Source: Nitrosococcus watsonii C-113
GTDB lineage: Bacteria > Pseudomonadota > Gammaproteobacteria > Nitrosococcales > Nitrosococcaceae
DNA: 64,000 nt
Direction: 5' to 3'
Assembly (NCBI RefSeq): GCF_000143085.1
Contig: NC_014315.1
Span: 2,696,001-2,760,000, forward strand
How positions within the stretch are numbered: the stretch's first letter is position 1; every line of letters starts with the position of its first letter. This document shows positions 9,826-20,045 of the stretch, one piece after another. The position numbers and the translations under genes are program-made. The notes beneath the pieces are model-generated. The model did not search any database and was not told the DNA's origin. It saw nothing but the letters and a program-made list of their open reading frames with translations.

Positions 9826-12800
9826 TTAACCCGCTTCTTTGGCCCGTTTTGCAGCACTCAACCCACCGCATCCAGGCCCCGCTATCTTGCTCCTGCCACC
9901 GGTTTGAGGTATTACCCGAATTTGGGAGCTGATCCGCTCCTTCAGGGCCGGCACGTGTGAAATCACGCCGATCAGCTTGCCGTCCTGCTGCAGGCCCGCG
10001 AGAGTTTCCAGCGCGGTATCCAGAGCCTCCTCATCCAGGGTGCCGAAGCCTTCATCCAGGAACAGCGAGTCCACCCGAACATTCCTGCTGGCCATGTGGG
10101 ACAATCCCAGCGCCAGGGACAGGCTGACGATAAAGCTCTCGCCGCCGGAAAGGTTCTTCGTGGACCGAATCTCCCCAGCCTGGTAGTTGTCAACCACGCT
10201 GAGCTCCAGGGGCTGAGCATCGTCGCGGATCAGCAGGTAGCGATCGGTCATTTGCTGGAGTTGCCGGTTGGCGTGACCAAGCATCACTTCAAAGGTCAAC
10301 CCCTGGGCAAAATTGCGGTATTTCTTGCCGTCTGCAGAGCCGATTAATTCGTGCAGGTTCTTCCACCTGCGGCATTCTTTTTTCTGGGCTTCGATAGCCC
10401 CTTGCTTCTCCTTTATCCGCTCTTTGGCGGCAGCATTTTCATCAAGCCTGTGCTTGAGACCGGCAATGATGTCTCGCAGCTCTTTCAGAGATTCCTCCTG
10501 TTCCTTGAATTGGGGCTCGAGCTCTTCCAGCGATTTGTCGGTAACCTTTTGGGCCATTGCCGTGGCCAGGCGCGTTTCCCGATCCTTTTGTCTGGCCTTC
10601 AGGTCGGTTTGACGCTCATCCAGCGCTCTAGCCTTATCCGCCAGCTCATCCCTCTGCGCAGAGGGCAGTCTGGCCACCAGCAGTTGTGCTTCAGTTGCAA
10701 AGCCCACGGATGCAAGCGCTGCGGAGAATCCGGCTTCCAGCCTACTCAGTTCCGGTGCTCGCTGCTCGATGCCTTTCTGCAGCGATTCGACCCGGGCCTG
10801 CGCGGTATTCCACTTTTGCTGGAGCGCATTGTGCCCTTCTCTGGCCCGCCTTTCGGCAGCTTCGGCATCAGCAACCGCCCTGTTCAAACGGCGCTCCTCA
10901 TCATCGGGCTTCTTGTCGCCGTACAGCGCCTTGCGCTCTTCACTTGCGGCGGTGAGTGCCTTTTTCAAGCTCTCCAGGCGTTCCCGCTTTTCGGCCAGGG
11001 CGGTGTTTTGGGTTTCGATCACCGCACCCAGCCGCTTCATCTCGCTGTCGAGGTCGGCAATCTGTTTCTCGCTGTCCGCCTTTTTCCTGACCTGGGCCTG
11101 CCACGCCTTCAGCCGCGCGCTGAGGGTTTCGAGCAATGATGCAATGTCCGTTTCAGGGAGATCCGTAATACCCAGCGGCAGCAATTTGGCAGTAACGGCC
11201 TGACGGCGTTCGGCAAAATCGGCACCGAGTTTCACCAGGCCATCCTTCACGTCAGCCAGAGCTTTCTCGGCAGCCTTCTTGTCATTAGCCGCTACTGACT
11301 CCAGCTTGTCAGCCTCCGCCAGGTTTTTACGGGCCAGGCTTTCAGCTTCTTCGAGTGTCCTGATGGCGGCTTCCTGATTCTCGGCTTGGCTGATCAGTCT
11401 GGTCAACGCGTCGATCTGCTGTTCGGTTTCATCGGGAACAGGGACATTGCCTGACGCGAAGGGATGCTCGGTGGCGCCGCACAGTGGACAGGGCTTGCCG
11501 TCTTCCAGTTTTGCCCGGTGATCTTCAAGCTCGGCAATCTTGGTCAGGAAGGCCATTTCCCGCAGCAGGGTTTCCTTCTCGGTGCGGTATTCCCGCAGTA
11601 GACGGTCTCCCAGTAGCCGGTTCAAGGCCTCTTTGCCCCGCTGCAGTTGCCTGGAGGCGTCTTCCAGCTTCTGTTTGCCAATGCCGGATTGCTTCTGCCA
11701 GCTGTCGAGTAACTGTGTCGCCTGTTCCAGAACCTTCGCGGCCTTCTCTTGAGCAGCCTCTTCGTGAAGGATTTCATTTTGCCGGGAAAACAGCCCGTTC
11801 AGTTGTTCTTCCACCCCGGCCAGACCGCCGATCAGCCATTCATCTTGCGCATGCTCCTTGAGGTAGTCGTCTGCAAGTTCCAGCGTCTCCTGTGCCCTGG
11901 CACGTTTTTCCTGCTCGCCAAGCTTGGCTTGTTTGTCCGCCGCAATCCTGGCCGCCGCCTTTTTGCAGCCCGCATCACCCTCGGTAACCGCCTGCTGCTG
12001 ATCAGCAAGTTTCTGATCGAGGGAGCGAATCGCCTGCAATCTCGGTGCGGCTACTTGCAGCTCATCCTTGGCCCGGGCGGTTTGCTGCTCGGCTGATTTC
12101 AGTGCCTCGGCCTGTGCCCTGGCGGCGGTCTCCAGTCCGGGAAGCGCCTCTTCCCCGGTTTGCAATGCGGCTCGGTCATCCACCTGCTGTTTGCGGGTGA
12201 CGGTGAGCGTTGCGTAGACGCCATCCAGTGAGGCGGCGCTCAAAGCCCGGTTGAGCTTTTCACGCTGCGGCTTGAACGCCTCGACATCGGCTTGTAGCCT
12301 GCCCGCCTCGTCAGCGAGGTCGGCGATTTCCTGCTGCAGGCCACCGATGGTGACGAGCCAGGCAATGGCTTTCCCGGTCTCAGCGAATCTGGCGGCACAG
12401 TCTGCCGCTTCCTTGCGCCTTGCCTGCAGTGCCTGCCCGAGCTCCTGTTCCTGCTCCGGCTCAAGAATCAGGATGCCTGCCGTTTCAGCCTGGAGCAGGT
12501 TCAGTTGCTCCCTTTCTTCGCGCTGGCGCTCATGGACACGGATGGATATCCGGCTGTAGATCCCGGTGCCGGTGATCTGCTCCAGGATCGGCGCCCGCTC
12601 ATCCGGTGCCGCCTGCAGGAAGGCGGCGAAGCCGCCCTGGGCCAACAGCATGGAACGGGTGAAACGGTCAAAGTCCATGCCGGTAGCGGATTCGATCCGA
12701 TCAGCGACCCCTCTGATTTTGGATTCGAAAATCTCGCCGGAATCGGCATGGGCAATTTCGTGTTTCGGGGCCTGGAGTTCGCCATCCGGCTTCTTGCGGG

Positions 12801-13101
12801 CGCGGTGCTGGCTCCAGTGGCAACGGTGACGCCCGGCCTGGGTTTCGAAGGTCACCTCGGCAAAGCATTCGCCGGTCTGGCGGGACATGATTTCGTTTCC
12901 GCTCTTGGTGACCCTGTGCAGACGAGGCGTCCGCCCGTAAAGGGCGAGGCAAATGGCATCGAGGAGGGTGGACTTTCCCGCGCCGGTGGGGCCGGTGATG
13001 GCGAAGATGCCGTCAGACGCGAAAGCCGGATGCGTCAGGTCGATTTGCCATTCGCCAACCAGCGAGTTCAGATTCTTGAAACGTACCTGCAGTATTCTCA
13101 T
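9826..13101 (-). CDS. sbcC: Exonuclease SbcC (SMC-like ATPase subunit)
   Basis: A 1091-residue Rad50-type protein. Walker A is GPTGAGKST (residues 37-45). Long coiled-coil arms surround a zinc hook CPLCG near residue 537. The C-terminal ATPase half has the signature NLSGGESFIVSLSLALGL and Walker B SLFLDEGFGTLDEEAL. With SbcD it forms the nuclease that opens hairpins and processes blocked DNA ends. It lies 11 bases downstream of sbcD in the same operon. Long cruciform-prone repeats elsewhere in the window are natural substrates for such an enzyme. Confidence 0.96.
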   Translation of the reverse strand: MRILQVRFKNLNSLVGEWQIDLTHPAFASDGIFAITGPTGAGKSTLLDAICLALYGRTPRLHRVTKSGNEIMSRQTGECFAEVTFETQAGRHRCHWSQHRARKKPDGELQAPKHEIAHADSGEIFESKIRGVADRIESATGMDFDRFTRSMLLAQGGFAAFLQAAPDERAPILEQITGTGIYSRISIRVHERQREEREQLNLLQAETAGILILEPEQEQELGQALQARRKEAADCAARFAETGKAIAWLVTIGGLQQEIADLADEAGRLQADVEAFKPQREKLNRALSAASLDGVYATLTVTRKQQVDDRAALQTGEEALPGLETAARAQAEALKSAEQQTARAKDELQVAAPRLQAIRSLDQKLADQQQAVTEGDAGCKKAAARIAADKQAKLGEQEKRARAQETLELADDYLKEHAQDEWLIGGLAGVEEQLNGLFSRQNEILHEEAAQEKAAKVLEQATQLLDSWQKQSGIGKQKLEDASRQLQRGKEALNRLLGDRLLREYRTEKETLLREMAFLTKIAELEDHRAKLEDGKPCPLCGATEHPFASGNVPVPDETEQQIDALTRLISQAENQEAAIRTLEEAESLARKNLAEADKLESVAANDKKAAEKALADVKDGLVKLGADFAERRQAVTAKLLPLGITDLPETDIASLLETLSARLKAWQAQVRKKADSEKQIADLDSEMKRLGAVIETQNTALAEKRERLESLKKALTAASEERKALYGDKKPDDEERRLNRAVADAEAAERRAREGHNALQQKWNTAQARVESLQKGIEQRAPELSRLEAGFSAALASVGFATEAQLLVARLPSAQRDELADKARALDERQTDLKARQKDRETRLATAMAQKVTDKSLEELEPQFKEQEESLKELRDIIAGLKHRLDENAAAKERIKEKQGAIEAQKKECRRWKNLHELIGSADGKKYRNFAQGLTFEVMLGHANRQLQQMTDRYLLIRDDAQPLELSVVDNYQAGEIRSTKNLSGGESFIVSLSLALGLSHMASRNVRVDSLFLDEGFGTLDEEALDTALETLAGLQQDGKLIGVISHVPALKERISSQIRVIPQTGGRSKIAGPGCGGLSAAKRAKEAG

Positions 13102-13112
13102 CGCCGGCCTCT

Positions 13113-14369
13113 CTATTGCGCCTGCACGTCGTCTTCAGTGAGAGACGAGACCGTTTCCCGGTAGGCCGCAAGCAGTTCCGGCCGCTGGTCTTCAGGCACC
13201 TCATGAGCGGCGAGGCAGCGTTCGAACACATCGTCCACGTTCAGGTCATCGAGCGTTTCCTCTGCATGGATTTGCCCCAGTACGCGGTCGATGATGCGGT
13301 TGTTTTTGATGCGGAGAATTTCCATCCGGGTGCCGGAAATTGCAGCCTCCAGGCGCTCACGCAGGTCGCCAATGACTGCCTCGCCTGCGTAAATGACTTC
13401 GAGCCAGATTGCCGATTCATCCGCGGAGCCGCTTGCCGACAATTCGCGGAGGCAGCGAGCGATGCCATCCCAGTCTCCCGTGACGCGCTCGAGCTTTTGA
13501 AACACCGGCACGTCGATCAGTTGCACGGCTGCAGCCCTGCTGTCGCCCGCGTCCCGGTCAAAGGTAACCCGGCAAACGCTCTTCTGCTGTTTTGCCTCGC
13601 CAAACCCCATGGGCAGAGGCGAGCCGCTGTAGCGTATGGTGTCGGAGCCGCTCACCCTTTGCGGAACGTGAAGGTGTCCAAGCGCCAGGTAATCAAGACT
13701 GGTGGGAAAAATCCCCGCCGTCACATGGGCCAGGGAGCCAACATAGAGCTCGCGCACGCCATCGCCGTCGAGGGTTTGTCCGCCAGCGGTAAACAGATGC
13801 CCCATGGCGACGATGGGAATATCAACCCCGAGTTCCTCGCGCTTGCCTTCGGCCAGGGCGGCGACGGTGGCGTAATGGGTGCGGATGCCGGCAATCAGCT
13901 TGCGCTCCTTGTCCTCGACGCTCTCACCCGCTTCCGCCACGCGGATGTCCCGGTCGCGCAGGTAGGGCACGGCACAGACAATCAGCGCCGGCGTTCCCTG
14001 GGCATCGGCGAGCACCAGAATCTCGTCCCGCGGGTCTTCGCACCTGCTACCGATCACATGGACATCGAGCGCCTTAAGCAGTTCCCTGGGAGCATTGAGA
14101 AAGGACGGTGAGTCATGATTGCCCGCGATAATCACCACATGGCGGCAGGAGGAAGCGGCCACCTGGCATAGAAAGCGGTAATAGAGCTGCTGCGCACGGT
14201 TGCTCGGGGCGCTGGTGTCAAAGACATCGCCTGCCACCAGCAGGGTATCGATGCCTTGCTGCTGAATCGTCTCCGCCAGCCAGGCCAGAAAGGCCTCGAA
14301 CTCCTCGTAGCGTTTTCTGCCGTACAGGGTGCGCCCGAGGTGCCAGTCGGATGTGTGGAGGACTCTCAT
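13113..14369 (-). CDS. sbcD: Exonuclease SbcD (Mre11-like nuclease subunit)
   Basis: A 418-residue calcineurin-type phosphoesterase. The metal-binding motifs are in order: SDWHLGRTLYG near the start, LLVAGDVFDTSAPSN, IIAGNHDSPSF, and LGHLHVPQ. It is encoded directly before sbcC. Length and motifs fit SbcD, the nuclease partner of SbcC. Confidence 0.96.
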   Translation of the reverse strand: MRVLHTSDWHLGRTLYGRKRYEEFEAFLAWLAETIQQQGIDTLLVAGDVFDTSAPSNRAQQLYYRFLCQVAASSCRHVVIIAGNHDSPSFLNAPRELLKALDVHVIGSRCEDPRDEILVLADAQGTPALIVCAVPYLRDRDIRVAEAGESVEDKERKLIAGIRTHYATVAALAEGKREELGVDIPIVAMGHLFTAGGQTLDGDGVRELYVGSLAHVTAGIFPTSLDYLALGHLHVPQRVSGSDTIRYSGSPLPMGFGEAKQQKSVCRVTFDRDAGDSRAAAVQLIDVPVFQKLERVTGDWDGIARCLRELSASGSADESAIWLEVIYAGEAVIGDLRERLEAAISGTRMEILRIKNNRIIDRVLGQIHAEETLDDLNVDDVFERCLAAHEVPEDQRPELLAAYRETVSSLTEDDVQAQ

Positions 14370-14527
14370 TGGGTAATCAATGCCTTCATTGGATCAAAGC
14401 GGCGGTCATCATCTTTTTGTATCAAGCAAAGCAGGATATTGAATACCCGCCTTTGATAGGCGGCATGTTTATTGGAGTTTCGCCATCGGTTCTGGTAGTA
14501 AGAGGGATTGAGCTTTTTTCACCCAAA

Positions 14528-14992
14528 TTAGGCCATTCCTCGCGCTTGAAGAAAGGTCCGCCAATGGCGGTACAGCCCAGCCAACGCACCTGCCGCCTCC
14601 ACCGCGGCAAGCAGATTGGCTAAACGGCGCTGAGGCCGGTCGGGATATTCATGGGCAAGCCGATTGCGGATTTCCCTCCAGGCGAACCAATCGGTGGCAT
14701 TGAGCACATGCAATTTTTCCAAGCGGTCGAGCCGGTCACGCATGGGCCACTCCTCGAAAGGTTCGCCTAAAGCAGCCAAAGTCGCCGGCACGAGGCGCAT
14801 CCCCAAGGCATCCTGGAGCTTCATGAAACGAAATAACACCTGATCCGCAACCCTCAAGCGGTGGGGATCTCCTTCAACCTCATTGAGGCTGGCTACCTCA
14901 CCATAGACCGCCCAACTTGCCATTGCCTGCTCCAGAACCACTAGATGCCGATCCGCTTCCCAAAGCGCCGCTTCCAGCCTCGTCCTCGTCAC
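14528..14992 (-). CDS. HEPN-family toxin of an MNT/HEPN pair (HepT-like)
   Basis: A 154-residue helical protein starting at GTG 14992, overlapping the MNT stop by 4 bases (GTGA). It has the HEPN RNase motif REIRNRLAHEYP (R-x4-H type) near residue 115. HEPN toxins of this type cleave RNA and are silenced by the adjacent nucleotidyltransferase antitoxin, which AMPylates a Tyr next to the motif; a Tyr is present (HEYP). A longer frame to 15100 would run through the MNT gene and is unlikely. Confidence 0.8.
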   Translation of the reverse strand: MTRTRLEAALWEADRHLVVLEQAMASWAVYGEVASLNEVEGDPHRLRVADQVLFRFMKLQDALGMRLVPATLAALGEPFEEWPMRDRLDRLEKLHVLNATDWFAWREIRNRLAHEYPDRPQRRLANLLAAVEAAGALAGLYRHWRTFLQARGMA

Positions 14993-15300
14993 GCTACCTC
15001 CAGGGGCAGGGCCTGCGCCCGCACCGTTTGCACGAATTCGTCCTCTTCGCCAGGCTCGGCCAATACCACATCTAGTTTGCGCTCTCCCAATCGACGCCAT
15101 ACCTCCGCCACGAAGCGCGCGCGGATTCTAGCGGTTTCCTCGGCAGACAACGATTCAGGAAGTTCGATCAATAAGTCAATATCACCTCCCCGACGCAAGT
15201 CATCCGTTCTCGAACCAAACAGAAACACACACGCCTCGGGACCAAAACATTTCCGCGCCGCCTCGATAAGTGCTCGTCGTTCAGGTATGGTCAGCCGCAT
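14989..15300 (-). CDS. MNT-family nucleotidyltransferase antitoxin (MntA-like)
   Basis: About 103 residues from ATG 15300. The minimal nucleotidyltransferase motif is present: FLFGSRTDDLRRGGDIDLLI (GSxxxx...DxD). It lies upstream of, and overlaps, the HEPN gene. In MntA-HepT systems this enzyme transfers AMP to the HEPN toxin. The frame could extend to 15333, but the family start aligns with MRLTIPERRALIEAA. Confidence 0.82.
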   Translation of the reverse strand: MRLTIPERRALIEAARKCFGPEACVFLFGSRTDDLRRGGDIDLLIELPESLSAEETARIRARFVAEVWRRLGERKLDVVLAEPGEEDEFVQTVRAQALPLEVA

Positions 15301-15513
15301 CCTTAACCCTGCCCCCACACTATCTTTTATCACATCACAGTTTTAATTGCCGGTTCAATTATGAGAATAGCCCTGTTTCTCATTCATCTCACCCCGAACT
15401 TCAAGAGCCAAGGCCCATCTATTCGCATCCTACCCCCCAATAGGCCATTGGCTAAAAAAGTACTGATAACTTATCCTAGCAATTAAAATATGCGGATATA
15501 AACTTTACCTCTG

Positions 15514-15864
15514 ATGAATACAAAATTTTTAAACTCTACCCACAATGACCATATATATCCCCTGAAAAAAGCCCCCCAATGGGACATCGCGGAATCTCAG
15601 CGAATCGTGCGAGAAAAACTAGGGGGGATAAAGGCGGATATCTACTTATTTGGTTCTAGGGCAGATGGAACCATGGGCCGCTATTCAGACATCGACATTG
15701 GCATAGATCCCTATGAGCCGCTGCCCGTAGGTCTCCTCGCGGAAATTCGAGAAGCTCTCGAAGAAAGCCAAATCATTTATCAGGTGGACTTGGTCGATCT
15801 GTCACAGACATCCCAAACATTCCGCCGGCGTGTCCTTGAAAAAGGTATTCAGTGGAAAGACTAA
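15514..15864 (+). CDS. MNT-family nucleotidyltransferase antitoxin (second module)
   Basis: A 116-residue protein with YLFGSRADGTMGRYSDIDIG, the nucleotidyltransferase GS...DxD motif. It is transcribed divergently from the MNT/HEPN pair on its left, with about 200 bases between. The next gene overlaps its end by 13 bases and encodes the HEPN partner. Confidence 0.82.
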   Translation: MNTKFLNSTHNDHIYPLKKAPQWDIAESQRIVREKLGGIKADIYLFGSRADGTMGRYSDIDIGIDPYEPLPVGLLAEIREALEESQIIYQVDLVDLSQTSQTFRRRVLEKGIQWKD

Positions 15865-16268
15865 AGCAAAGAATTGGTACCGCTCGCAAAGCACTATTAC
15901 GTTTTGGAAAACTAGCCAATTTATCTCAGCCTAACGATATTGAGCGCGATGCCAGTATACAACGCTTTGAATTCAGCTTCGAAGCCGTCTGGAAGGCCGC
16001 TCAGCGACACCTCCAGATTATAGAGGGAATAGATGCGGCATCTCCAAAAACCGTCATTAGGGCTTCCTTACAAACAAATCTTTTCGATGAGGACGAATCA
16101 CGCCTCGCGCTGCAAATGGCGGACGACCGTAATCTCACATCTCATACTTATAACGAAGCGCTTGCCAAGAAGATCTTCTCCCGCTTAGGTGCCTACCATA
16201 AGCTCATGGGCAACTGGCTAAACCGCATGGAAGAAAGACTTGGCAAAAGTAGCGTCCCCCGCGCATGA
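15852..16268 (+). CDS. HEPN-family toxin, HI0074-type nucleotidyltransferase partner
   Basis: A 138-residue helical protein starting at GTG inside the end of the MNT gene. The FEFSFEAVWKAAQRHL segment and DDRNLTSHTYNE (R-x4-H) are diagnostic of the HI0074/HEPN family. Tyr in SHTY is the equivalent of the modified Tyr in HepT proteins. Together with the MNT gene it forms a second, apparently intact TA module next to the first. Confidence 0.83.
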   Translation: MERLKQRIGTARKALLRFGKLANLSQPNDIERDASIQRFEFSFEAVWKAAQRHLQIIEGIDAASPKTVIRASLQTNLFDEDESRLALQMADDRNLTSHTYNEALAKKIFSRLGAYHKLMGNWLNRMEERLGKSSVPRA

Positions 16269-16296
16269 TCGCTAAATGCAAGTACGGTTATTCTAG

Positions 16297-17595
16297 CTAA
16301 TCCGATTGCAGCAGCCATCGTTCCAAGACGGCATACACCTCCTGATCGGTCAACTTGCAATCCGACTCCTTATTCAAGAAAATTCTAACCTTTGAAAAGA
16401 CCTCTTCGGAGAGAAGCGCGTTAATCAGGCTTTCTTGAGTGAGCGAGCTTGCTTTGACCCAGAGTTGCTCCAGCAAGCCTTTTCTTTTTATGCCATAACG
16501 GGAAATGAGGTAAAGACAATGAACGGTCTCATCATCCAGGCCGTTTCGTATGTCCACATCAAAAACGAGATGTGATTCTATTTTGCCGTCACACGTGGTT
16601 ATCCTGTAAAGTTGCCAAGAGATCACGTTCGTCAGAATAGCCCACTTTATCCCCGAGTGGGCGCCATAAGAAGTCGCCTGAAATATTTGTCTATCCCGGA
16701 GCTTTGAGTTGATACGTTTGGCTTCAATAACGATGACATCCTCTTCTTGAACGGAGAGAACGTAATCAGCTTTCTTACCTTTGATTGACTCCTCATTTTT
16801 TATTTCATCCATTTTATAGCCTAGGGCATCCTGCAAGAGACGATCGAGAATCATCCGGGTACTGCTTTCATTCTGGTTCTTTTCCAGAGCGCTGTTAATA
16901 TAAGGCAAATAGGTTTGTAGTCCCTTTTTAATCAGCTCTTTTTGTTCATCGATCACCGCTTGCCGGGATCGTCGAGTTGCTTTTTCCTGGGGCGCTACCT
17001 CATCTTCCGCCAGATCGTCCATGTTTATAGGGACGCCAAAATGCTCGGCCAGGGCTTTCAAGCCGCCCGAAAATCCTTGCCCGATAGCGCGGAACTTCCA
17101 GCCGGTATGATGGCGATAAATTTCCCCCAGCATCAGCGCCGTTTCATTGCCAATATCGCCGGTCATATTATAGGCGGCCAAACTATGATTAGAGGGAGTA
17201 CGATCTACTAAACTTATACTGAGCAATTCCAGGACATCTTTTAGGTTTTGACGATGCTCCTCCCAGCCATGAATCGTCAGGCAACACACCAGTTTTTGTA
17301 TTTCCTGGGAAATTTTCTTTAAGTGAATAATAAAACCCGTACTCTTATTATCGTTGCCTTCGCTGCTAATATGAACAACCGACTTATCTTCATCAATGCC
17401 ATTATTGTAAAAGATAAAATCCTGGTCTTTTCTTACTTTTTCATTAGCATTGACAAGGAAAATACTGGCATCTATGTCCGCTTCTATTGAAACGTTATTT
17501 TTCATTCTCCACTTGATTTGAATATATAGATCCCTTGATTGATTAAGATCTTTGGATAGCCATACATTCTCGCCTTTCCTGATTGAAGCAGCCAC
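16297..17595 (-). CDS. TerD-domain protein fused to a PD-(D/E)xK restriction-type nuclease domain
   Basis: A 432-residue two-part protein. Residues 1-195 are a TerD stress domain: IRKGENVWLSKDL, the Ca2+-type EADIDASIFLVNANEKV segment, and GNETALMLGEIYRHHTGWKF then AIGQGFSGGLKAL. A charged linker follows. Residues about 220-370 resemble the HsdR N-terminal nuclease fold: KGKKADYVLSVQEEDVIVIE followed by AKRI, with the D ... E-x-K triad. TerD proteins belong to tellurite/phage/colicin resistance systems, and HsdR_N domains cleave DNA. The gene stands alone between TA modules; its role is unknown, and defence is an inference. Confidence 0.75.
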   Translation of the reverse strand: MAASIRKGENVWLSKDLNQSRDLYIQIKWRMKNNVSIEADIDASIFLVNANEKVRKDQDFIFYNNGIDEDKSVVHISSEGNDNKSTGFIIHLKKISQEIQKLVCCLTIHGWEEHRQNLKDVLELLSISLVDRTPSNHSLAAYNMTGDIGNETALMLGEIYRHHTGWKFRAIGQGFSGGLKALAEHFGVPINMDDLAEDEVAPQEKATRRSRQAVIDEQKELIKKGLQTYLPYINSALEKNQNESSTRMILDRLLQDALGYKMDEIKNEESIKGKKADYVLSVQEEDVIVIEAKRINSKLRDRQIFQATSYGAHSGIKWAILTNVISWQLYRITTCDGKIESHLVFDVDIRNGLDDETVHCLYLISRYGIKRKGLLEQLWVKASSLTQESLINALLSEEVFSKVRIFLNKESDCKLTDQEVYAVLERWLLQSD

Positions 17596-17753
17596 GTTAA
17601 ACTCCCCTGCTATTTTAACCCTATGGAAAGTTCATCGGCCTAACCGCGCCTATCTTCAGCGCAGTCAAGAAAAAGGTTGTAGTCTGGCTGATAGCTAATG
17701 ACTGTATGCTTCTAAGCCACGGACAAAGCTCTCAACTGCATTGCAATTTTCTA

Positions 17754-17767
17754 GGTATTACAATACC
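17754..17767 (+). promoter_or_regulatory. Palindrome upstream of the broken VapBC pair
   Basis: GGTATTACAATACC is a perfect 14-base palindrome 32 bases before the antitoxin ATG, the expected position of a VapB operator. A ggagg ribosome-binding site follows at 17788. Confidence 0.55.
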
Positions 17768-17798
17768 TTGATTAAGTAATACTGAATGGAGGTTAACT

Positions 17799-18067
17799 AT
17801 GGCCACGATCCTTACCCGTAAAGGCCAAGTTACGGTGCCAAAGAAGATTCGTGATTATCTCGGCTTGCGCCCAGGATCAGCGGTTGATTTTTCCCTAGGC
17901 CCCATGGCAAAGTGATTCTGCGTCCGACGGAAAATGCCCCACCAGAACGCCGTAAGGATCGTTTCGGCAAGCTGCGAGGCACGCTCGATACCGGCAGGAC
18001 CACCGATGAATGGATGCATTTGCTGCGTGGCTACAATGCTGACGTCAACGACCCTGGCCTGAAATAA
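17799..18067 (+). pseudogene. AbrB/VapB-type antitoxin, frameshifted
   Basis: The start is MATILTRKGQVTVPKKIRDY, an AbrB/SpoVT DNA-binding domain. One base is missing in the C run near 17903, giving a premature TGA at 17913. In the restored frame it continues GKVILRPTENAPPERRKDRF to a stop at 18065. The DNA-binding half could still be made as a 38-residue peptide. Confidence 0.85.
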
Positions 18068-18470
18068 TTCTGGTCGACACTTGCTGCTGCTGGATGTAGT
18101 GAAAGGCGATCCACACTGGGCGGACTGGTCGCTGACACAGCTAGAATGGGCTGCGGAACACGGCAAACTGGTGATCAACCCGGTCGTGTATGCCGAGTTC
18201 TCGGTGTGGTATGACAACATGGCAGAATTAGAGCGGGCCCTTACCAACTTCGATGCTACTCTTGAGGCATTATCCCGGGAAGCCCTGTTTCTGGCCGGCA
18301 AGGCATTCCGGCAATACCGCGCGCGGCGGGGAACACGGGCCAGCGTGTTACCGGATTTCTTTATCGGCGCGCATACGGCGGTACGGGAAATGCCGGTGCT
18401 GACACGGGACACTGCCCCCATTCGCGCCTACTTTCCGACAGTAGCGCTGCTGACGCCGCAACGGAGCTAG
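18064..18470 (+). pseudogene. vapC: PIN-domain (VapC) toxin, N-terminal frameshift
   Basis: The first codons read I-L-V-D-T, the normal VapC start with its first catalytic Asp, but in a different frame from the rest (LLLLDVVKGDPHW onward). The expected ATG overlapping the antitoxin stop is ATA. Other PIN acidic residues survive: VVYAEFSVW, LPDFFIGAHT and LTRD. A TTG at 18081 opens the downstream frame, but that product lacks the first Asp and should be inactive. Confidence 0.8.
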
Positions 18471-18827
18471 CCTTCCTTTACAAACGCCACTATATAATCA
18501 CGTAGGGCGGGATGCGCTACGCTTTCCCGCCCTACCTTACCATACTGATTATCTGAGACGGGTTTTGCATTTTTTTTAGCCTAGCGACATCTATTTCCCA
18601 GTATAATTTCTAAAATCGGGTTCCATATGGTATTCAAGCTTTGTAACCCCATGCCGTTAATTGCACTATGCGGAATTATTGCAATACACATTGAACTAAT
18701 GGCCTAAAGTAGCACGATTCTTTAATAGCTAAAATTACCACCTAAGCGTAATCCCCAAAATTAACGGTTTAGGCTCATGTATATTGCAAGCTGCTGCACA
18801 GCATAACTTAAGGAGATAACTGCTTCA
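18471..18827. other. Gap containing a REP-like palindrome, otherwise A+T-rich
   Basis: Between the broken vapC and the polysaccharide operon. It holds the REP-like element at 18502-18535 and then A+T-rich sequence that probably contains the promoter of the glycosyltransferase at 18828. I see no additional gene. Confidence 0.6.
18502..18535. repeat. REP-like palindrome, family 1
   Basis: GTAGGGCGGGA ... TCCCGCCCTAC, an 11-bp stem with a 12-base loop carrying gcgctacgc. A diverged copy in the opposite orientation is at 30241-30275. Confidence 0.8.
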
Positions 18828-20045
18828 ATGCCTTCTTTCCCTCTGTCTTCTACTTTGCAAGAACGAGCTCTCCGTGTCGCTGTGCTCACCACTTCCTTTC
18901 CGCTTACAACAACGGCGGTAAGCGGCACATTCGTAAAACGTTTAATCCAAAATTTGCCCCCCTCAGTGGAGGCAACTGCCATTGCCCCCAGCGGTATTGA
19001 ATCGGAGCAACTACCAACGAATGCCAATTACCAAATCCGCTGTTTCCGCTATGCCCCCCGTTCTTGGCAACAACTTGCTCATCAACCAGGCGGGATTCCG
19101 GCGACCCTAAAACAGCGGCGGATTTTCTACCTTCTCCTCCCAGTGTTTTTAGGATCAATGTTTTTGGCTTGCTTGCGTACTGCTAGGAACGTTGATCTTA
19201 TTCATGCCAATTGGTCTATTAATGGTGTCATCGCAGGCATTGCCGCTTGGTTTACAGGAAAACCGATCATTACCACACTTCGAGGACAAGATGTTAATCG
19301 TTCTCGATCATCGCGGGTTTATCGAATAATACTAGGACTTTGCCTACGGCTAAGTAACCATGTGGTAGCAGTCAGCGACTCCATTCGGTTTTTGGCAGTA
19401 CAGCAATTTCCAACCCAAAATAATAAATTTACCGTCATCCATAATGGTGTCGATCAATGCTTTCTAGATATCGGCGCTCGACGCCAACAAACGGATTCGC
19501 AAACATTGAGGCTGATCACCGTTGCAAGTTTGATCCCATTAAAAGGGGTTGAGCAGATTATCCAGGCAGTGAATCTATTGAAAAATGAGATTGATCTAAA
19601 CCTTACTATTGTCGGCAATGGCCCAGAAAAAGAAAAACTGCAAAACCTAACAAAATTGTTTGAATTACATAAAAAAATTAGCTTTACCGGTAATATAGCT
19701 CCCAGTGAAATTCCAGCATATCTCGAAAAAGCAGACATATTTATTTTAGCAAGCCACAGCGAAGGACGTCCCAATGTTCTATTAGAAGCCATGGCAGCGG
19801 GCTTGCCTATTATTGCAACCAATATTCCAGGCACCCAGGAAATAGTGCAGAACGGTAAAACAGGAATTTTATTTCCGCCAAAATCTATCGAGAGACTTGC
19901 AGATGCGCTGCGGCGGCTATCTCAAAACGCTTCCTTGAGACAACAACTCGCCAAGAATGCTAGACGGTTTATCCTTGACCAAGGGCTTTTTTGGACTCAT
20001 ACGAGTTCCCGCTATGCTGAGCTTTACCGGCAGATCCTTTCTTAG
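18828..20045 (+). CDS. Glycosyltransferase family 4
   Basis: A 405-residue GT-B enzyme. N-terminal VLTTSFPLTTTAVSGTFVKR and donor-domain motifs TVASLIPLKGVEQIIQA and ADIFILASHSEGRPNVLLEA (E-x7-E) place it in GT4. It is the first gene of a plus-strand operon with the amidotransferase 15 bases downstream, a second GT4 and a flippase-like gene, so it acts in extracellular polysaccharide or O-antigen synthesis. Sugar and linkage unknown. Confidence 0.88.
   Translation: MPSFPLSSTLQERALRVAVLTTSFPLTTTAVSGTFVKRLIQNLPPSVEATAIAPSGIESEQLPTNANYQIRCFRYAPRSWQQLAHQPGGIPATLKQRRIFYLLLPVFLGSMFLACLRTARNVDLIHANWSINGVIAGIAAWFTGKPIITTLRGQDVNRSRSSRVYRIILGLCLRLSNHVVAVSDSIRFLAVQQFPTQNNKFTVIHNGVDQCFLDIGARRQQTDSQTLRLITVASLIPLKGVEQIIQAVNLLKNEIDLNLTIVGNGPEKEKLQNLTKLFELHKKISFTGNIAPSEIPAYLEKADIFILASHSEGRPNVLLEAMAAGLPIIATNIPGTQEIVQNGKTGILFPPKSIERLADALRRLSQNASLRQQLAKNARRFILDQGLFWTHTSSRYAELYRQILS

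Follow-up and report, generated by a model that had tools for sequence, protein, structure and literature searches.

What does a protein do that carries a TerD domain and a restriction-type nuclease on a single chain? Ter genes have been linked to phage inhibition. A natural fusion that pairs a TerD-type domain with an enzyme whose type of output is known offers a way to learn what TerD senses or binds. The case described here also points to phrog_17239, a phage nuclease family of unknown function often found right after a repressor. The gene lies in a 64,000-nucleotide stretch of DNA, called the window throughout. We argue that the fusion is probably a phage-derived weapon against rival phages, because its relatives belong to temperate phages, in many cases placed right behind the repressor gene.

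The fusion gene is a single uninterrupted open reading frame of 432 amino acids on the minus strand, with a GTG start at 17595 and a stop at 16297-16299. Its parts are as follows.

16297..17595, minus strand: TerD-nuclease fusion gene, 432 aa (open reading frame, Pfam; full-length relatives at L055:3401-4702 and L123:3583-4839)
17608-17602, minus strand: Shine-Dalgarno-like AGGGGAG, 6 bases 5' of the GTG (direct reading of the letters)
17038..17589, minus strand: residues 3-186, TerD domain that resembles TerA/TerF and lacks the acidic loop of canonical TerD (Pfam, VIA-align, tree, alignment)
16966..17037, minus strand: linker, residues 187-210 (AlphaFold2 pLDDT below 50 at 197-205)
16300..16965, minus strand: residues 211-432, HsdR_N-type PD-(D/E)xK nuclease ending in a helical tail, phrog_17239 (Pfam, PHROGs, nuclease-only model, VIA-align)
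16867-16869, minus strand: E243
16765-16767, minus strand: D277
16717..16725, minus strand: E291-A-K293 of the catalytic motif (conservation in 52 rows; letters checked)
16678-16680, minus strand: Q306
16666-16668, minus strand: Y310

Pfam recognized TerD at residues 3-186 (E 1.1e-48, 165.7 bits against a cut-off of 25.3) and HSDR_N_2 at residues 243-339 (E 8.3e-9, 36 bits against a cut-off of 25). PHROGs assigned two families of unknown function, phrog_5698 over residues 5-185 of the TerD half (E 1.5e-19) and phrog_17239 over residues 215-430 (E 3e-42), and all NCBIfam matches were far below their respective cut-offs. The AlphaFold2 model of the protein, built from an 82-row alignment (mean pLDDT 92.3, pTM 0.62), predicts two confident domains with a loose join near residues 197-205. 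The fusion of TerD with a restriction-type PD-(D/E)xK domain reported by the first-pass annotation is thus borne out by both Pfam matches, by the single reading frame and by the same join in relatives.

We then compared the predicted nuclease half with solved structures. In the full-length model, residues 222-369 superimposed on the nuclease domain of DrdV (VIA-align Z 11.8, rmsd 2.8, 130 aligned), in a tie with HsdR 3h1t (Z 11.7, rmsd 3.4, 119 aligned) and BpuSI (Z 11.6, rmsd 3.8, 148 aligned). A nuclease-only AlphaFold2 model (pLDDT 93.7, pTM 0.85) left these top rows unchanged (DrdV Z 12.3, BpuSI 11.9, HsdR 3h1t 11.7). Foldseek gave no PDB match below 0.001 for this model (best 1.5e-3, BpuSI), so the fold assignment is taken from VIA-align and Pfam. 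Some mitoribosomal chains also reach Z 8-9.5 with the nuclease-only model, and for that reason the EcoR124I rows (Z about 8.5) do not suffice by themselves. D277, E291, K293, Q306 and Y310 are invariant in 52 aligned rows (the window protein, L055, L123 and 49 further members from viruses); E243 is retained in no fewer than 90%. Outside this set, the chromosomal member L024 has N in place of D and a truncated remnant in genome G004 has no equivalent of E243. The motif first quoted as KADY...VIVIEAKR was read correctly, its catalytic residues being D277, E291 and K293. Neither of the two refuting conditions set for it came true: a nuclease fold is predicted with high confidence, and homologues retain the catalytic residues. 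By its predicted restriction-endonuclease fold and D...ExK residues the C-terminal half belongs to the PD-(D/E)xK enzymes of the HSDR_N kind, and it would be a metal-dependent DNA-cutting nuclease.

We rejected the HsdR subunit of a type I system as an identity for the whole protein, which has no SF2 helicase motor, HsdM or HsdS domain by Pfam; the six neighboring ORFs scanned have none of these either. No PADLOC-DB 2.0.0 family matched the whole fusion protein at E 0.1, and the nuclease half alone gave weak partial matches to type IIG families (best 4.7e-7).

We also compared the TerD half with solved structures. Residues 18-190 superimposed on TerD 3ibz (VIA-align Z 21.7, rmsd 2.4, 171 aligned), the half scored Z 15.1 to 2kxt, and the solved sequence relatives at credible E-values are TerD proteins (2kxt 9.6e-34, 3ibz 5.8e-29). 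The top VIA-align row was 9a6r_B (Z 26.3), an integrative model titled GLPD-SCP2. A Pfam score above the gathering cut-off and the predicted TerD fold place this half in PF02342. It had been called a full TerD domain, and it is complete in length; what it lacks is the acidic loop of canonical TerD. This loop, GDNxTGxGxGDDE, which we take to be part of the Ca2+ sites, is present in 8/8 stand-alone TerD rows aligned and absent from the window, L055 and L123 fusions. The window and L055 proteins do retain D40, D42, N64 and N65.

In a tree of 35 hand-picked TerD domains, the fusion halves grouped with the N-termini of multidomain Ter rows that we take to be TerA and TerF (90/89), apart from 21 canonical TerD proteins and five of a second kind. 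The TerD half of L123 forms a long branch nearer the TerA/TerF rows (92/74), and the three TerD halves are not one clade, being held together in only 4% of bootstrap trees. Given this degenerate TerA/TerF character, the TerD half is more likely to serve as an adaptor than as a free sensor of Ca2+. Three features lead us to favor a model in which it docks on a TerD assembly to one in which it senses Ca2+ directly: its likeness to TerA/TerF, the missing acidic loop and, in L123, its pairing with a canonical TerD.

How widespread is the fusion? We found three intact fusions and one remnant. Both full-length relatives come from viral contigs: L055 matches the window protein at 77% identity from end to end and L123 at 39%, and each scores above the Pfam cut-offs for TerD and HSDR_N_2. 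The remnant, in G004, a genome of another genus in the same family, is a 264-aa ORF (L004) that is 51% identical to residues 90-347, truncated at both ends and, by eye, beside a pyrE-like gene. Between the window gene and L055, dN/dS is about 0.08 over 432 codons, at a dS of 1.67 that is near saturation; taken separately, the TerD half gives 0.17 and the nuclease half 0.03, the latter with a saturated dS (2.4). The computed ratio indicates purifying selection on the fusion. The join is not accidental, since it recurs at 77% and 39% identity and under such a low dN/dS. Nothing beyond rarity speaks for a chance join or sequencing artefact, and the same join is present in L055, in L123 and, truncated, in G004; we give this explanation a negligible chance and reject it, because the join recurs.

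The nuclease half forms a family of its own, with members mostly about 250-300 aa long. It is present in 14 of 369 genomes of the class (window genome counted), 7 of 72,556 plasmid records and 1 of 50,697 phage records. One scan of viral contigs recovered 60 loci, among which only L055 aligned over the TerD half; L123 was found by a later scan with the TerD half as query. Stand-alone members include those at L012:4031-4867, on Leptospira weilii plasmids, and at L014:2968-3762, in Thermus phage Riverbug, where the nuclease lies behind a LexA-like regulator with an integrase two genes on.

Searches for further full fusions were negative. There was none among 58 relatives besides the window genome, of which only the G004 remnant extended past the TerD half, and none in the three other genomes of the genus, though TerD is present there. 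Among the 368 class genomes besides the window genome, 13 had a C-terminal match and none a full fusion when the ORFs were read; nine of these 13, and one plasmid member, have no TerD by Pfam, and one match is in a broken frame. Scans of 397 phylum genomes besides the window genome (E 1e-30), of 48 genomes (E 1e-35) and of 273 besides the window genome gave no full fusion either; the last two add little, since their genomes, as far as shown, had already been drawn in the class and phylum scans. The L123 fusion was not covered to 80% in one place by any of the 50,697 phage or 72,556 plasmid records, and two pattern-based scans of genome contigs, weak for being pattern-based, gave no further full fusion. 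The fusion is thus rare in what was searched. More are likely in viral contigs, because each of the six scans made there recovers only contigs with the exact peptide patterns used and one of them missed L123. Foldseek on BFVD gave 12 matches below E 0.001, mostly TerD-like, and one of them, A0A6J5NY69 (396 aa, named HsdR N-terminal domain protein; 260 columns, rmsd 11.8), might span both halves.

A tree of 57 nuclease halves, built without the truncated L093 and L101, places the TerD fusions and the remnant in one clade (97/85), nested in a 100/100 clade with L056, L057 and L116. The nucleases of these three are 45-49% identical to that of the fusion. In place of TerD, L057 has a Zn_ribbon_4 match (1.7e-5, below the curated cut-off) and L056 and L116 have four cysteines, read by eye; a weak match to Zn_ribbon_4 occurs also in L029, which is chromosomal and more distantly related. 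By this nuclease tree, then, TerD may have been added a single time, and the recipient nuclease would have had its closest kin among proteins with a zinc-ribbon-like N-terminus. A single simple origin is disfavored because the TerD halves of the three fusions do not form one clade.

We next consider where the relatives lie. PHROGs identifies in L055/L157 a terminase small subunit, an O-like replication protein, a CII-like regulator and, in the place of Cro, a transcriptional repressor. In L055 the last three follow in this order on one strand, and the other strand holds a CI-like HTH_3 protein, one small ORF and then the fusion. This is a lambda-type immunity region, and the fusion stands behind the CI-like repressor where lambda keeps rexAB. 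No RexB-like gene was read after it, on a contig that ends about 1 kb on. A PIN-domain ORF follows on the opposite strand (L055:4941-5480, E 3.9e-6); a PIN-like gene also lies near the window fusion, and this shared neighbor may be a coincidence. The closest relatives without TerD, L056, L057 and L116, likewise follow same-strand HTH_3 proteins, with none to one ORF between. Downstream of the zinc-ribbon-like/nuclease protein of L116 is a D12-class adenine methylase (L116:6143-6904), which could protect self DNA.

L123 is a Mu-like phage in which the fusion begins 3 bases behind a canonical TerD gene; L123/L160 carries, by PHROGs, terminase large subunit, portal, Rha-like and holin genes. The order in L123 is Mor activator, FIST/GGDEF protein, TerD, fusion, and then Rha-like, holin, terminase and portal genes, with no repressor ahead of the fusion in the ORFs read (Pfam on part of them). 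Farther upstream come a C-5 cytosine methylase fragment, an HD-CE protein and an ORC-CDC6-like protein, resembling accessory conflict genes; together with the Mor and FIST/GGDEF genes they lie at L160:2-6754 and perhaps form a further conflict cluster. No methylase was read beside the fusion in the window or L055; the L123 contig has the cytosine methylase fragment.

To count neighbors we took up to two same-strand ORFs on each side of 52 non-redundant viral loci out of 61, nine near-identical loci having been dropped (L111 and L112 were also dropped from row set A15). HTH_3 was present in 18/73 upstream ORFs (45 loci) and in at most 1/61 downstream ORFs (41 loci), an upper bound set by its absence from the 25 commonest families there (Fisher p 9e-5 for 18/73 vs 1/61). 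Control ORFs more than 1.2 kb away had it in at most 1/75; edge ORFs were removed from this set (75/101 kept), and 3/73 upstream ORFs touch an edge. Peptidase_S24 occurred in nine upstream ORFs. Phage_integrase occurred in two upstream and in 7 of the 61 downstream ORFs, a difference that is not significant (p 0.08), and Resolvase gave three matches among the same 61. Because the viral contigs were collected to be rich in phages, location in phages is by itself a weak argument. More weight goes to the position relative to the repressor, which is seen in a minority of the loci (18 HTH_3 ORFs in 45 loci), L055, L056, L057 and L116 among them; L123 and the window copy do not have it.

The window copy itself has other neighbors.

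14528-15100: ORF without a Pfam match at E 1, partner of the following nucleotidyltransferase ORF
14989-15333, 3' side of the fusion: nucleotidyltransferase ORF (Pfam)
15514-16268, 3' side: nucleotidyltransferase/NTase_sub_bind pair (Pfam)
within 17799-18470, 5' side: MazE/AbrB-type antitoxin in a broken frame (E 5.8e-7 for the open first piece)
18081-18470, 5' side: PIN-like ORF, open (PIN E 0.0027, below the curated cut-off)

The two nucleotidyltransferase (MNT) modules at 14528-16268 lie back to back on opposite strands. They had been annotated as two MNT/HEPN modules, of which the nucleotidyltransferase parts stand and the ORF at 14528-15100 has no Pfam match. The supposed VapBC pair on the other side is toxin-antitoxin-like; its antitoxin is of the MazE/AbrB type with a broken frame, and its PIN match is weak. 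Pfam found no repressor, integrase or other ter gene in the six neighbor ORFs (14528-18470). A location inside a prophage has no support, as there is no integrase or repressor in these ORFs and only weak repeats of 16-25 nt at 14000-19000. Nucleotide similarity to contig L119 covers the fusion gene alone, besides chance-level matches of 14-23 bases. G002, the genome with the most similar SbcD (83%), shares only 9826-14435 with window positions 1-40000 over the 38.5 kb compared; only sbcCD is common to both, the DNA on both sides differs, and sbcCD may mark a variable site. Promoter and terminator scans were at about shuffle level (4 vs 3.0 and 1 vs 1.9). G+C is 0.436 in the fusion gene, 0.602 in sbcCD and 0.503 in the mean window tile, and the value of the fusion gene is no strong sign of transfer because 19/210 tiles are as low.

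The window genome comprises 3.37 Mb in three contigs. PF02461, the ammonia/methane monooxygenase subunit family, occurs in 6/6 genomes of the family including this one, and the host is a probable ammonia-oxidizing gammaproteobacterium. Its own ter locus lies about 0.49 Mb from the fusion and encodes a canonical TerD (36% identical), TerB, TerC and PRTase_2 proteins. Fragments resembling the L055 replication protein in two other genomes of the genus suggest that related phages reach these hosts.

With moderate confidence, we read the fusion as a temperate-phage exclusion effector that was left behind or moved onto the chromosome; its TerD-like half would direct the nuclease by docking on Ter assemblies or by sensing them. 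In a lysogen the protein would be made with the repressor, from the repressor side of the immunity region, and would guard the lysogen. Its C-terminal HsdR_N-type nuclease would be the effector and cut DNA; its N-terminal half, an adaptor or sensor of the TerA/TerF kind, would dock on canonical TerD assemblies, supplied by its own neighbor in L123 and by the host ter locus in the window genome. Docking would place the nuclease, or switch it on, when a rival phage perturbs the cell, and the TerD half might thus act as a stress sensor that drives the nuclease. The system may have two components, the fusion and a canonical TerD, and not be the single-gene defense first proposed, because L123 has a separate canonical TerD gene ahead of its fusion. 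The defense role suggested at the outset is better argued from the context of the relatives, which points to phage exclusion, than from the toxin-antitoxin neighborhood. Against this reading, the window gene is an orphan, L123 is not behind a repressor in the ORFs read, and in the window and L055 self-cutting would have to be avoided with no methylase read beside the fusion. A fuller version, held tentatively and on balance doubtful, is a Ter system with a DNA-cutting arm: a TerD-like adaptor would assemble with a phage- or host-coded canonical TerD and, on the Ca2+ or nucleotide-like signal of the Ter pathway, turn on the nuclease or aim it at incoming DNA. If this fuller version is true, TerD would gain a measurable output, and phage nucleases that follow a repressor and differ in an interchangeable N-terminal part for recognition (TerD, zinc ribbon or none) would make up one family.

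Other roles have to be weighed against phage exclusion. The TerA/TerF character of the TerD half, the host's own ter locus (TerD, TerB, TerC, PRTase_2) and the TerD gene preceding the L123 fusion would also suit a chromosomal DNA-processing or repair enzyme of the Ter pathway, with TerD bringing the nuclease to damaged DNA in chemical stress and no anti-phage role. This is unlikely: the three other genomes of the genus have TerD and no full fusion, the two other full fusions are on phage contigs, and the window copy is about 0.49 Mb from the ter locus. We think it similarly improbable that the protein is a lytic-cycle or counter-defense nuclease of the phage (host DNA breakdown, recombination or attack on plasmids) whose place in the early region is incidental. 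In its favor are phrog_17239, a phage-borne family of unknown function, and the L123 fusion, which adjoins an antirepressor-like Rha gene and lysis genes; HTH_3 upstream (18/73) and seven Phage_integrase and three Resolvase matches among 61 ORFs downstream point to the lysogeny side, though integrase is not significantly commoner downstream than upstream (p 0.08).

The gene could also be a relic without present function in the window genome. It is an orphan in a toxin-antitoxin patch with one broken gene, the one further copy found in a cellular genome is the truncated G004 remnant, and the G+C of the gene, 0.436, is as low as that of 19/210 window tiles. Set against these points are a full-length ORF with a start signal, all the catalytic residues, and the dN/dS of about 0.08 to L055, with which recent decay is still compatible because the ratio averages the whole path. 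We give the relic a slim chance and keep phage exclusion as the preferred reading.

Anantharaman 2012, the key paper on Ter domain fusions, may mention TerD-nuclease fusions. Each ingredient is already known: TerD domains, HsdR_N nucleases and exclusion genes that follow a repressor. The union of TerD and an HsdR_N nuclease in one protein, repeated in phages, is absent among the matches listed in the open-licence PMC literature, where judging by titles and the starts of abstracts no paper has such a fusion as its topic. Two papers put forward TerD as a ligand-binding sensor of threat signals and phage Ter genes as acting against superinfecting phages, as a hypothesis (PMC7824862, PMC7159879), and another calls prophage-mediated defense likely widespread (PMC6426596). 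An anti-phage system that depends on TerD and has a McrBC-like restriction part is already in print (cited in PMC3710099). As the fusion would, it links TerD with a restriction-type nuclease in defense; there the parts are separate genes of one neighborhood, whereas here they form one protein with an HsdR_N-type nuclease.

Among known proteins, those of the multidomain TerA/TerF type resemble the fusion in their N-terminal TerD-like half (90/89), their degenerate acidic loop and their place beside a canonical TerD (L123), but their C-terminal module is a second TerD-like or vWA domain and not a PD-(D/E)xK nuclease. The stand-alone phrog_17239 proteins of temperate phages and plasmids, named HsdR N-terminal domain-containing, share the whole C-terminal half, its catalytic residues and often the post-repressor place; they have no TerD half, and most have no recognized N-terminal domain. 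L056, L057 and L116 are closer, in the same 100/100 nuclease clade and behind a CI-like repressor, with a four-cysteine N-terminus that replaces TerD. The type I HsdR subunits and the type IIG/IIL enzymes BpuSI and DrdV share the predicted nuclease fold at Z about 12, and the fusion has none of their helicase, methylase or specificity parts. In lambda, rexAB directly follows CI (PMC12894663). The L055 fusion has the same post-CI place and, presumably, an exclusion role, but it is one nuclease-bearing protein with no RexB-like membrane partner seen. SNIPE is a defense nuclease with diversified N-terminal regions that localize it (PMC13190303). It has GIY-YIG and DUF4041 domains and mostly a membrane anchor, whereas Pfam at E 1 found neither domain in the fusion; the likeness, a defense nuclease with a variable N-terminal part, would be one of possible working.
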